Assembly: GCA_030746435.1 (NCBI GenBank)
Contig: JASLMV010000004.1
Span: forward strand, 1-64,000
Direction: 5' to 3'
From: Gammaproteobacteria bacterium
Lineage (GTDB): Bacteria > Pseudomonadota > Gammaproteobacteria > Steroidobacterales > GCA-2729495
DNA: 64,000 bases
Within the stretch, counting starts at the first letter, position 1; every line of letters starts with the position of its first letter. Made by a program: the position numbers and the translations under genes. Under the pieces are notes generated by a model. It saw only the letters and a program-made list of their open reading frames with translations, was not told the DNA's origin and did no database searches. Of the stretch, positions 2,371 through 47,852 are shown one piece after another.

Positions 2371-2519
2371 GTAGGAGCGGCTTTAAGTAATGCCGGGATT
2401 CGAGGGCTGGCCCAACCAGCACTTGAATGCCAAATGGCGGAACTTATGTCGGTAAAGCACAGCTTTACCGACTTCTGTATTCAACTAGAGTTGGTTCGCG
2501 GCTAAAGCCGCTTCTACAG
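2371..2519. repeat. Composite palindromic repeat, copy 1 (with a terminal REP)
   Basis: Starts GTAGGAGCGGCTTTAAGT and contains the block GCCGGGATTCGAGGGCT. It then has GGCGGAACTTATGTCGGTA leading into a hairpin GTCGGTAAAG/CTTTACCGAC, and ends with an inverted REP (TTCGCGGCTAAAGCCGC, 2495-2519). The first ~117 bases are closely similar to copy 3 at 47594, and the first ~85 to copy 2 at 13335. It fills the 450-base gap between atpI and parB. I see no credible gene there: the only open frame (2485-2667, minus) is made of the REP. The rest, 2520-2663, shows nothing recognisable. Confidence 0.85.
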
Positions 2520-2663
2520 GGGGTTTCAGCCTGAAAAGCAAGAGTTTAAGGGGCCCCAGAATAGTTGCGGGTGCGTTACTTCCACCGAAAAAGCGGTGCT
2601 TTTCCGGCATATATTCCGCCTCAGATTTTTCCGCGCGTACTCCTGCCACGCGCAAAAATGGCG

Positions 2664-3602
2664 TCATTTAAGGTGATCCAATATGCCTTCGAGTTCGTCG
2701 ACGCTGTTGTAGCTGATTACGAGCTTGCCCTTGCCTTTGGCCGAATGCTGTATCGCAACTTTGGCGCCCAGCTTGTCACGCAACTCGTCCTGGAGGCGCC
2801 GGATATCAGGGTCCAATGCCGCAACTTTCACGGTACCACCGGACCCGGCTCCGGCCTGTATCCGGCGAACCAGTGATTCGGTTTCGCGAACGGAGAGCCC
2901 CCTGGCCACAACCTTGCGGGCCACTTCGACCTGGCGGCGCTGGCTGGGCAATGCCAACAGTGCCCGGGCATGGCCCATGTCGAGATCTCCTCCGGCCAGG
3001 AGCTGGCGGACTTCCGGCGGAAGGTCCAGCAAACGTATTAAGTTAGATACTGCCGCGCGAGATTTGCCAACTGCGCGGGCTGCTTCCTGGTGGGTCAGTT
3101 CGAATTCGAGGATCAGGCGTTTAAGGCCTTCGGCCTCTTCGAGGGGATTGAGGTCTTCGCGCTGCAGGTTCTCGATGAGCGCTATTGCGGCTGCGGCCTC
3201 ATCATCGACATCCCGTACCACGACCGGGATCGAATCCAGGCCGGCCATCTGAGCTGCGCGCCAGCGGCGCTCGCCGGCAATAATCTCGTAACGGGTGGGG
3301 CCAGTGCCCCCGGGGCCGAGCGGCCGTACCGAGATCGGCGCCAGCACACCCTGCACCTTGATGGATTCAGCCAGTTCCTCCAGCGTTTCCTTGTGCATGT
3401 CCCGGCGCGGCTGATAGGCGCCCGGGGTCATTAGGTCGAGGGCGAGGTTGCGTAATCCCGTGGCCGGTTTACCCGGCGCAGGGACAGGCGCGGACAAGGT
3501 GGTAAGGCCGGGTTGGGTATCGTCGGACGCCGTAGCCGGTATATCCACGGGGCCGAGCAGGGCATCGAGCCCTTTCCCCAGTCCGGTTTTCTTTGCTGCC
3601 AT
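2664..3602 (-). CDS. parB: Chromosome-partitioning protein ParB (CTP-dependent parS clamp)
   Basis: ParB loads at parS sites and spreads as a CTP-gated clamp to organise the origin region, working with ParA. The 312-residue protein has the conserved N-terminal peptide KKTGLGKGLDALLG, the nucleotide motif GERRWRA at 110-116, the arginine-containing stretch ENLQREDLNPLEEA at 144-157, a helix-turn-helix at about 167-192, and a C-terminal dimerisation domain. Candidate targets in this window are the perfect parS at 30510 and a near-match at 31122. parA lies 1.5 kb upstream on the same strand. The two are normally adjacent, but here they are split by the PEP-CTERM gene and the RAYT/REP element. 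Confidence 0.97.
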   Translation of the reverse strand: MAAKKTGLGKGLDALLGPVDIPATASDDTQPGLTTLSAPVPAPGKPATGLRNLALDLMTPGAYQPRRDMHKETLEELAESIKVQGVLAPISVRPLGPGGTGPTRYEIIAGERRWRAAQMAGLDSIPVVVRDVDDEAAAAIALIENLQREDLNPLEEAEGLKRLILEFELTHQEAARAVGKSRAAVSNLIRLLDLPPEVRQLLAGGDLDMGHARALLALPSQRRQVEVARKVVARGLSVRETESLVRRIQAGAGSGGTVKVAALDPDIRRLQDELRDKLGAKVAIQHSAKGKGKLVISYNSVDELEGILDHLK

Positions 3603-3747: not shown

Positions 3748-3770
3748 GTGGGAGCGGCTTTAGCCGCGAA
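3748..3770 (+). repeat. REP palindrome, left flank of RAYT
   Basis: A 23-base REP beginning GTGGGAGCGGCTTTAGCC, able to form a GCGGC-TTTA-GCCGC stem. It is the exact reverse complement of 4312-4334 on the other side of the transposase gene. It lies in the 242-base gap between parB and the RAYT gene. No other feature is seen in that gap. Confidence 0.9.
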
Positions 3771-3844: not shown

Positions 3845-4285
3845 GTGAGGATTTACCGCAGCGGGAAGCTCCGCAAAGGACGCCGGTCCATAGCCGGGCA
3901 AATATACCTGGTAACGACGCGCTCCCGTAACAAGATGCCATGGTTCAGCGATATGAATATTGGTCAGCTTATTGTCAGTGAGCTGAAACGGTCCGACAAG
4001 CTTGGCTACACGTGTACCTATGCCTTTGTGGTCATGCCCAACCACCTGCACTGGTTGTTCGAACTAAAACACGGTCAAACGCTTAGCCAGATCGTAGCAA
4101 CGGTAAAAGGAAGATCAGCATTTAGAATTAGTCGGCGATTCAGCCACGTGTCAAATGTTTGGCAAGCAGGCTTTCAGGACCGGGCTCTGCGTAGTATAGA
4201 AAGTGTCGAGGGTGCTGCGGAGTATGTCGTTAACAATCCCGTCCGGGCCGGTTTAGTGAACAGGGCTTCTGACTATCCCCTTTAG
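3845..4285 (+). CDS. REP-associated tyrosine transposase (RAYT)
   Basis: Y1-type HUH nuclease of the RAYT/TnpA-REP group. These are single-copy relatives of IS200/IS605 transposases that cut and move REP palindromes. Visible motifs are the metal-binding HUH pair in MPNHLHWL (His67, His69), the family block WQAGFQDRALR (106-116) and the catalytic Tyr127 in AAEYVVNNPVRAGL. It uses a GTG start. At 146 residues the C-terminus stops at DYPL, about six or more residues earlier than in many relatives, where aromatic residues follow. The tail may therefore be slightly clipped, but the catalytic core is complete. It is transcribed opposite to parA and parB. Confidence 0.88.
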   Translation: MRIYRSGKLRKGRRSIAGQIYLVTTRSRNKMPWFSDMNIGQLIVSELKRSDKLGYTCTYAFVVMPNHLHWLFELKHGQTLSQIVATVKGRSAFRISRRFSHVSNVWQAGFQDRALRSIESVEGAAEYVVNNPVRAGLVNRASDYPL

Positions 4286-4311: not shown

Positions 4312-4334
4312 TTCGCGGCTAAAGCCGCTCCCAC
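4312..4334 (-). repeat. REP palindrome, right flank of RAYT
   Basis: Exact reverse complement of the left REP at 3748-3770 (23 of 23 bases). It lies 27 bases after the RAYT stop codon. Confidence 0.9.
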
Positions 4335-9581: not shown

Positions 9582-9604
9582 TTCGCGGCTAAAGCCGCTC
9601 CTAC
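9582..9604 (-). repeat. REP palindrome
   Basis: TTCGCGGCTAAAGCCGCTCC plus TAC, the same family as the REPs beside the RAYT gene (22 of 23 identical to 4312-4334). It lies in the short gap between the truncated secreted protein and oppDF and may act as a transcript-end hairpin for either. Confidence 0.88.
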
Positions 9605-13334: not shown

Positions 13335-13423
13335 GTAGGAGCGGCTTTAAGTGACGCCGGGATTCGAGGGCTCAAGCAGCTAGTACTCGAATGCCAGAAG
13401 GCGGAACTTAAAGCCGCTCCTAC
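13335..13423. repeat. MITE-like composite palindromic repeat, copy 2
   Basis: An 89-base element whose ends, GTAGGAGCGGCTTTAAGT (13335-13352) and its exact reverse complement (13406-13423), form perfect 18-base terminal inverted repeats, extending to 22 of 24 when the next six bases are counted. The inner part, GCCGGGATTCGAGGGCT to ACTCGAATGCC, is shared with copies 1 and 3. It sits in the oppA-oppB intergenic gap, where its hairpin could set the ratio of binding protein to permease message (inference). Confidence 0.88.
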
Positions 13424-39468: not shown

Positions 39469-39718
39469 GGCAGCCGTGGTCCCCGTAAAAGTAGGCAATG
39501 ACGCGGGCGCAAGTATAAATGACGAGCAGCTTTCAGGTCGCATGCAATCGACCGGAAAGCTCTCCTCGTAATTTAGACCGGAAACCAGTGGTTTCCGGCG
39601 CCTTTAAAGTCACAGCCTCCCCTGAACAGCGGCAAAACTCAATCCCGCCGTGCTCCTTAATAATAATGAAGGCTGCCAGCATATCCGGGGCCGAATAGCG
39701 GCCGTATTCCGCTAAATA

Positions 39719-47593: not shown

Positions 47594-47706
47594 GTAGGAG
47601 CGGCTTTAAGTGACGCCGGGATTCGAGGGCTCGCGCAGCCAGTACTCGAATACCAAACGGCGGAACTTATGTCGGTAAAGCACGGCTTTACCGACTTCTG
47701 TATTCA
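47594..47706. repeat. Composite palindromic repeat, copy 3
   Basis: Begins GTAGGAGCGGCTTTAAGT, as in copies 1 and 2, then shares the same GCCGGGATTCGAGGGCT core. It has the tail of copy 1, with hairpin GTCGGTAAAG/CTTTACCGAC and end CTTCTGTATTCA. It lies between the convergent trmL and gpsA, 43 kb from the RAYT gene. The rest of the gap (47707-47852) shows no gene. Confidence 0.85.
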
Positions 47707-47852
47707 TCGGAAGATGGTTTGCGACCAGCCGCCACCACAGTACCCCTTTTGTGACCCGCGTCACAGTTTACCTGCGTGCTGAATTGCTACCTTGGAACTG
47801 CAGCGTTTGTGGCCAGGGACGGCCCGGCGCTGTTTTTTGTGCCTGCGAAATC

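Follow-up and report, generated by a model that had tools for sequence, protein, structure and literature searches.

Repeat units, parB and a RAYT gene in the window

The window (the whole 64,000-nucleotide stretch analysed) carries three copies of a palindromic repeat family, at 2371, 13335 and 47594 as located in the initial annotation, together with a parB gene (2664..3602, minus strand) and a RAYT gene (3845..4285, plus strand) whose Y1_Tnp product contains an HLH motif and a tyrosine within EYVVNNPVRAG. All three copies have GTAGGAGCGGCTTTAAGT and GCCGGGATTCGAGGGCT in common, copy 1 with one change between them. When copy 2 was used as a blastn query, copy 3 was retrieved with E = 2.1e-26 and copy 1 with E = 2.8e-18, so kinship by chance is excluded. 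The same search of the assembly (2.43 Mb, 38 contigs, 96.8% complete) gave 21 rows at E≤0.01, including both other window copies and several more.

Copy 1 (2371..2517, plus strand; 95.7 bits) is a REPIN-like unit, designated type A, in which a REP head is followed by a module (2384..2472, plus strand; TAAGTAA, hairpin A, GGAACTTA and hairpin B), a spacer and a simple inverted REP (2495..2517, minus strand), confirming the REP first reported at its far end. Copy 3 (47594..47739, plus strand; 107.6 bits) is a type A unit with its module at 47607..47695 (plus strand), and reading of its far end revealed a decayed REP (GGTTTGCGACCAGCCGCCACCACA, 47716-47739) absent from the initial annotation. The difference described between the tails holds insofar as copies 1 and 3 run on into GTCGGTAAAG...CTTTACCGAC and copy 2 ends in an inverted head. 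Copy 2 (13335..13423, plus strand), which closes with inverted head copies and has lost hairpin B, looks nevertheless like an internal-deletion form of the same type A unit, with ACTTA fused to AAGCCGCTCCTAC. Such a deletion explains this tail better than the modular shuffling proposed before, and shortening of REPINs by deletion to a long palindrome is on record in the accessible text of Bertels and Rainey (PMC3116915).

Two further modules, both devoid of a REP head and not previously noticed, were found in the window. The first (match 2584-2682, minus strand) extends over 2582..2670, the start of its core and the end of its hairpin B being set by reading, and parB takes its stop codon from the TGA of this module (2666-2664). 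The second (match 39503-39603, plus strand) occupies 39516..39603.

The REP shell

The simple REPs of this genome have the layout GTAG-GA-GCGGC-TTTA-GCCGC-GAA. Compared by description and not by consensus letters, this layout agrees with the GTAG-1 REP definition given in the available part of PMC3733652: an unpaired GTAG tag, a dinucleotide, a short GC stem and a 3-nt motif on the far side. In the window, simple REPs of a GTGG form lie 5′ (3748..3770, plus strand) and 3′ (4312..4334, minus strand) of the RAYT gene, and another simple REP lies at 9582..9604 (minus strand).

Two inverted REPs with outward GTAG and a spacer between them, the arrangement typical of a REPIN, were observed in copy 1 and several other units; in copy 3 the far REP has decayed, and copy 2 has undergone deletion. 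A cognate RAYT flanked by the same REP, as expected for REPINs, is also present, with the GTGG forms at 3748 and 4334. The high copy number expected of REPs was not observed, the 2.43-Mb genome containing 28 exact simple REP cores whereas more than 100 copies are usual (PMC2817692, from the text available). The units are called REPIN-like because these 28 cores make a small population, which we did not take as an exclusion. When up to 3 mismatches were allowed, 57 REPs were counted versus 68 in the reversed control, and only near-exact REPs have therefore been counted. Simple REPs and inverted REP pairs are both found in the same genome as the module-bearing REPs.

Inverted pairs of simple REPs with a similar spacer of about 100 bp were seen at two loci (L051, G000:C22:44590, and L054, G000:C33:100014), possibly a separate REPIN subtype. 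At another locus (L019, G000:C11:55117 onwards), REP variants match at both unit ends (GGAGTCGCC...GGCGACTCC), which may mean that both ends of a copy change in concert.

A two-hairpin module in the REP loop

Alignment of 20 REP-borne copies, three of which were also folded, separated four sequence types (A to D) with one common plan, a GTAG-type REP whose TTTA loop contains a two-hairpin module of about 90 nt. In the module, TAARTGA leads into hairpin A, which stands over a GA/GA internal loop, and GGAAYTTA separates hairpin A from hairpin B. In a REP-borne copy the GTAG-GA-GCGGC arm comes first and runs through TTTAARTGA into this pair of hairpins. After hairpin B, TAGCCGCGAA closes the units of types C and D, whose REP thereby has a three-way junction for a loop. 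An inverted REP, simple or module-bearing, then ends most type A and B units and some type D units.

In types A, B and D the basal stem changes in step round the nearly constant GA/GA internal loop: it is TAAGT.GA.CGCC/GGCG.GA.ACTTA in type A and TAAAT.GA.CGAG/CTCG.GA.ATTTA in type B, with CGAC/GTCG in type D. Over the 20 REP-borne rows, 92.9% of the cells are paired versus 77.8% after shuffling. With DNA energies, a type D copy folded into the three-way junction, the REP stem closing it (z = -4.9); for one type C copy, the minimum-energy fold of the DNA lacked the basal stem.

The structure was also examined in a second alignment, A4, whose 38 rows comprise 8 copies in tRNA-Met loops, a single REP-borne copy and otherwise free ones. 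Here 92.3% of the cells are paired versus 72.2% in shuffles, with A4 leaning towards the structure by having been fitted to a model made from REP-borne copies alone; structures slid along A4 give 47.8% pairing at most. Doubly changed cells amount to 160 versus 48.7 in shuffles, a value reached in none of 500 shuffles. The copies outside REPs covary, which is strong support for the structure. The sense strand folds better in 52 of 63 unique copies and in 32 of the 36 lying outside GTAG REPs, and the helices of these 36 contain 24 G-T against 4 A-C. The preference for G-T over A-C shows that the strand on which the module folds is the strand read here.

Occurrence of the module outside REPs

A covariance model, R1, was built from REP-borne copies only and used to search the own genome, in which 40 matches were found at E≤1e-3 and a 41st at 1.07e-3. 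The family is larger than the three copies first seen, which the initial annotation would have considered ancient fixed sequence if no others existed and all lay at sites conserved across the genus. Reading of the left flanks placed 23 of the 40 in REPs, the deleted copy 2 included, and 17 outside them, or 18 with the 41st match. The module is an independent family and not the mere interior of a REP.

The module occurs in eight relatives in which no close RAYT was found (G001, G002, G003, G008, G010, G017, G022 and G030; 22-26% identical or no match) and was not detected in eight others whose RAYTs are closer (G012, G014, G020, G024, G031, G033, G034 and G036; 40-47% identical), some genomes in this comparison being incomplete. 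These different distributions make the RAYT a plausible mover of the shell, though not of the module. Mobilisation by the RAYT at 3845, proposed for the whole repeat, is thus compatible with the REP shell, REPs flanking the gene, and does not suit the interior.

With a further model, R2, and strict filters, matches were obtained in at least 12 of 396 genomes of the order, counts that are low since 9 candidates were scored per genome. Within the family of the window genome, the positive genomes belong to genera g1, g5, g6 and g7; two positive genomes are from family f7. One exact module pattern was found in at least two named genome records, both uncultured Gammaproteobacteria MAGs, and the viral contigs gave 0 matches to this same pattern. 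In an Rfam 15 scan of 37 loci at E≤1, tRNAs alone reached the gathering score; the matches below it include SorX (L100, 1456-1512; 27.5 of 46.6 bits), overlapping the start of a copy. No title or abstract describing such REP-loop modules was found in a literature search whose coverage mostly stopped short of subscription papers. In G017, a genome of another genus, a type D REP-borne module (L095, G017:C16:21084-21188) is almost identical to own-genome copies, by horizontal transfer or a binning error; that genome is 80% complete and no close RAYT was found in it, a point that counts against the nested-repeat reading preferred below.

Free modules at the ends of genes

Among the 18 free modules of the own genome, two lie directly 3′ of a called tRNA gene (Thr and Lys) and one directly follows a repeat of about 25 nt of the tRNA-Leu 3′ end, the whole gene being 0.4 kb upstream. 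Four follow a putative terminator, recognised by its hairpin and T-run (C14, C38, C32:176718 and C34:22737). In four more cases the upstream reading frame ends at most 8 nt away: parB, a DnaJ-domain-like gene (C1), an ORF (C37) and a 99-codon frame (C8). The rest comprises one nested copy, one remainder of its split host, one tandem follow-on and four unplaced copies. In relatives, modules were observed at the stop codons of rpmG, parB, a PurE-like gene, genes for two outer-membrane-like proteins, and pyrophosphatase-like, LspA-like, permease-like and thioredoxin-domain-like genes (names read from sequence without family search, parB excepted), and two copies are directly 3′ of called tRNA genes, Glu in G002 and His in G003.

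Counting ORFs from 150 codons upwards, a stop codon lies within 8 nt of 3/18 own free copies (p 0.02) and of 8/22 free copies of relatives (p 3e-7), the background being 3.3% and the classes having been tallied by hand. Counted in the 8/22 is the parB copy of G002, whose orthologue is among the own-genome copies. Left out are the G002 orthologue of the 39503 module, two partial tandem remnants (L097 and L113), the tRNA-Met copies and the unfetched G002 and G017 matches, and rpmG, a short ORF, was not scored as a stop. A T stands directly left of TAARTGA in 21 of the 24 copies examined. This stop-codon habit has precedents, since, in the parts of the two reports available, stop codons are also supplied by pneumococcal BOX elements (36 of 58 overlapped genes; PMC3049150) and by GTAG REPs (PMC3733652). 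At locus L173 (G000:C11:35082-35551), the arrangement of a tRNA-Leu 3′-end repeat with a module directly behind it resembles an attachment site duplicated round a small insert.

The fate of single free sites was followed in congeners. The module that supplies the parB stop is present, as a diverged copy, at the same place in G002, and no module is found there in G003 and G004. The 39503 module has a match at the same site in G002 and none in G001, G003 and G004. Conversely, a module follows tRNA-His in G003, and the corresponding tRNA cluster in the own genome is without one at this place. On contig C8 (38071-38260), the hairpin A arm of one module is split by another full module; when the flanks are rejoined the paired arm is restored with no duplication, the best fold of the rejoined host lacking the basal stem. 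Target-site duplications were sought at this nested site and at parB and none was found; terminal inverted repeats, sought by reading in free copies, were not found either, so the features of a MITE (terminal inverted repeats and duplication) are missing. The copy at C1:32115, which seemed likely to be another nested insertion, was rejected as its right part does not match.

These placements could also reflect a host RNA element, that is, a transcribed 3′-end structure which protects or processes tRNA and mRNA 3′ ends, is occasionally duplicated and kept where useful, and whose presence in REP loops is incidental. Such a role is the main rival to single-strand movement: it agrees with the sense-strand folding and the preference for G-T over A-C, with the sense-direction placement at stop codons, tRNA 3′ ends and terminators, and with the sharing by G002 of both free sites compared (parB and 39503), where much pairing is kept, as would also be the case for a useful RNA. 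Several copies, however, come after terminators, where little transcript is expected, and a host RNA accounts poorly for the nested, tandem and REP-loop copies, for the patchy presence in at least 12 of 396 genomes of the order (strict filters) and for the congener copy after tRNA-His that has no counterpart in the window genome. We consider this explanation rather unlikely, although it deserves to be kept in mind.

Capture by REP loops and tRNA-Met loops

The origin of the REP-borne modules was analysed with a tree of 61 cores, of which 23 are REP-borne (8 of type A, 4 of type B and 11 of type C/D, one of the latter from G017), copy 2 being left out. Seven changes between REP-borne and not REP-borne are needed on this tree, three of them forced by well-supported branches. 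In the AU test, a tree uniting all 23 REP-borne rows in one clade is rejected (p = 2.8e-6), and so is each of the groupings A+B, A+CD and B+CD (p 0.0004-0.0025); few columns (93) and paired columns that are not independent call for caution on these exact numbers. Because the REP-borne modules are not one clade, repeated capture of the module by REP loops is indicated. Modules with similar hairpins are also free in the same genome, one resembling type A after the terminator at C34:22737 and a type C-like one at C15:12139.

The module was also found in the T-loop of antisense tRNA-Met 3′ halves; genus g7 contributes three such genomes, g6 a single one (G030) and family f7 another (L163), and a tRNA-Met copy of G231 stands at the same coordinates as L163. 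In G010, an intact tRNA-Met gene with an empty loop is also present. With REP loops and tRNA-Met T-loops both occupied, the module has entered the hairpin loops of two palindromes unrelated to each other. The antisense tRNA-Met 3′-half repeats with a T-loop module are several per contig at G010:C80, G017:C62 and L163 and may be attachment sites of integrative elements.

The initial annotation regarded the copies as composite non-autonomous units built from REP-type ends, which is supported by these data. They hardly favour the idea that every copy is a REP of a single RAYT, with a loop that simply grew and diversified, and that the free copies are decayed REPs. This simpler history would benefit from the REP head common to types A to D, from the single RAYT with such REPs in the genome and from the complex-loop REPs described in the accessible text of PMC3733652. 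It conflicts with the polyphyly of the REP-borne modules, with the presence of the module where no close RAYT was found and its non-detection beside closer RAYTs, with free copies that abut terminators, tRNA ends and stops without a readable REP head, and with the copies in tRNA-Met T-loops; we regard it as improbable.

The sites of the REP units themselves differ between congeners. At the copy 1 site, no REP unit is found in three congeners (G002, G003 and G004), and the own genome alone has it. The copy 3 site yields neither a module match nor a REP unit in four congeners, and other genes lie between the flanks in G002. With the sites of copies 1 and 3 lacking the REP unit in the congeners read, the notion that the three window copies are ancient, fixed and immobile sequence is very improbable, in spite of the small numbers per type and of some decay as in the far REP of copy 3.

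Proposed nesting of mobile repeats

Our preferred reading, to which we give a probability of about 55%, is that of nested mobile repeats: a REP-dimer shell moved by the RAYT and, inside it, a separately mobile two-hairpin passenger module. The outer shell would be a GTAG-type REP dimer, a REPIN-like unit, most likely copied as folded ssDNA by the RAYT at 3845, as suggested by the flanking REPs and by the published biochemistry of TnpA-REP. In the text available for PMC8266576, the E. coli enzyme cuts the single-stranded REP, requires GTAG and a stem irregularity, and tolerates altered sequences of the loop and upper stem, not their removal; a large cargo in the loop is therefore believable. 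The inner module of about 90 nt, starting with TAARTGA, would have inserted several times into the loops of REP hairpins, behind GCGGCTT, and the shell would then have spread it as a passenger. The lone module probably inserts 3′ to T or TT with no obvious target duplication, as read at one nested and one orthologous site, and many of the insertions that survive are found just where a gene terminates: at a stop codon, a tRNA 3′ end or the T-run of a terminator.

Because the folding strand is the strand read here, we infer that the module may travel as one folded strand, which would most likely be ssDNA acted on in trans by a Y1/HUH enzyme. Movement as a folded single strand, most likely of DNA, is the tentative part of the scheme, with about one chance in three. 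More speculative, and doubtful, is a novel kind of minimal bacterial mobile element: a two-hairpin strand of about 90 nt with no terminal repeats, coding capacity or target duplication would be directed to gene 3′ ends, possibly via RNA, and would have repeatedly parasitised REP loops and tRNA-Met T-loops, spreading by their enzymes.

Relation to known repeats

PATEs, which are non-autonomous IS200/IS605 derivatives, have terminal hairpins, no target duplication, a T-rich left site and strand-specific folding, and the left target of IS605 is TTTAA. The module resembles them in all four of the former features and differs in that no cognate Y1 gene with module ends was found at the 30 of 55 Y1_Tnp places searched. 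In an integron attC site, the RYYYAAC and GTTRRRY boxes stand at the two ends of one long hairpin; by reading, the module has TAARTGA and hairpin B at its two ends and contains two separate hairpins, and an attC site was rejected. Hammerhead and kink-turn motifs, as usually defined, do not fit by eye.

The shell is close to REPINs and GTAG-1 REP dimers (BIMEs) with their RAYT, sharing the GTAG or GTGG tag, the GA, the GCGGC stem and the far-side GAA, as well as inverted pairs, a RAYT flanked by such REPs and deletion to a long palindrome (PMC3116915, in part). It differs in having as a loop a branched module of about 90 nt that also lives outside REPs, and in the few simple REPs (28 exact cores). 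Complex-loop REPs (GTAG-3 of E. coli and GTAG-14 of Bradyrhizobium) likewise bear self-complementary sequence in the loop, but in the available description (PMC3733652) theirs is a complementary inner loop of up to 27 bp, in contrast to two hairpins and a GA/GA loop that also occur without a REP. BOX, RUP and SPRITE of Streptococcus pneumoniae are structured small repeats inserting into one another; for BOX and RUP, the portion of PMC3049150 available describes terminal inverted repeats, and these together with target duplications as MITE features, neither of which was found here in another host and another sequence. The ERIC/RU and YPAL MITEs of enterobacteria are also small folded non-autonomous repeats, RU lying at gene 3′ ends, but they have TA ends and a TA duplication (PMC2759123, in part), compared with no clear duplication and a T(T) target here.

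We describe the system as a REPIN-like unit with captured modules, together with a small structured repeat family outside Rfam. It suggests that the loops of REP hairpins can serve as cargo bays, taking in folded modules of another family that then spread together with the REP. The cargo-bearing REPs offer a natural test of the loop size tolerated by the RAYT, the structured small-repeat family marks gene ends in an uncultured gammaproteobacterial family, and occupied and empty sites are available for tracing module insertion.

Candidate enzymes for the module

A link with Y1 enzymes was sought round 30 of the 55 Y1_Tnp places in the family, some cut by contig ends, and no convincing R1 match was found (best E 0.97). 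The module is not filed as a member of the IS200/IS605 type, since no ends are shared with a Y1 gene in the places searched. The window RAYT is outside these 30 places, and its nearest module is about 1.2 kb away, beyond parB, so a link of the module with this RAYT keeps a small probability.

Transposition of ssDNA might give a replication-strand bias. No such bias was detected among the copies with clear skew, the G-rich strand holding 9/14 of the free and 7/14 of the REP-borne ones, in a genome where the GC skew is weak. The sign of the skew, weak as it is, changes near window position ~28000, and the window also contains parB and an ATP synthase gene; it is possibly near a replication origin. 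A second Y1_Tnp gene of the genome (L062, G000:C17:11624-11959, in a frame of 205 aa) has palindromes of the TTGGTGTCTGACACC type nearby, which are not GTAG REPs, and Y1 genes similar to it are common in the family.
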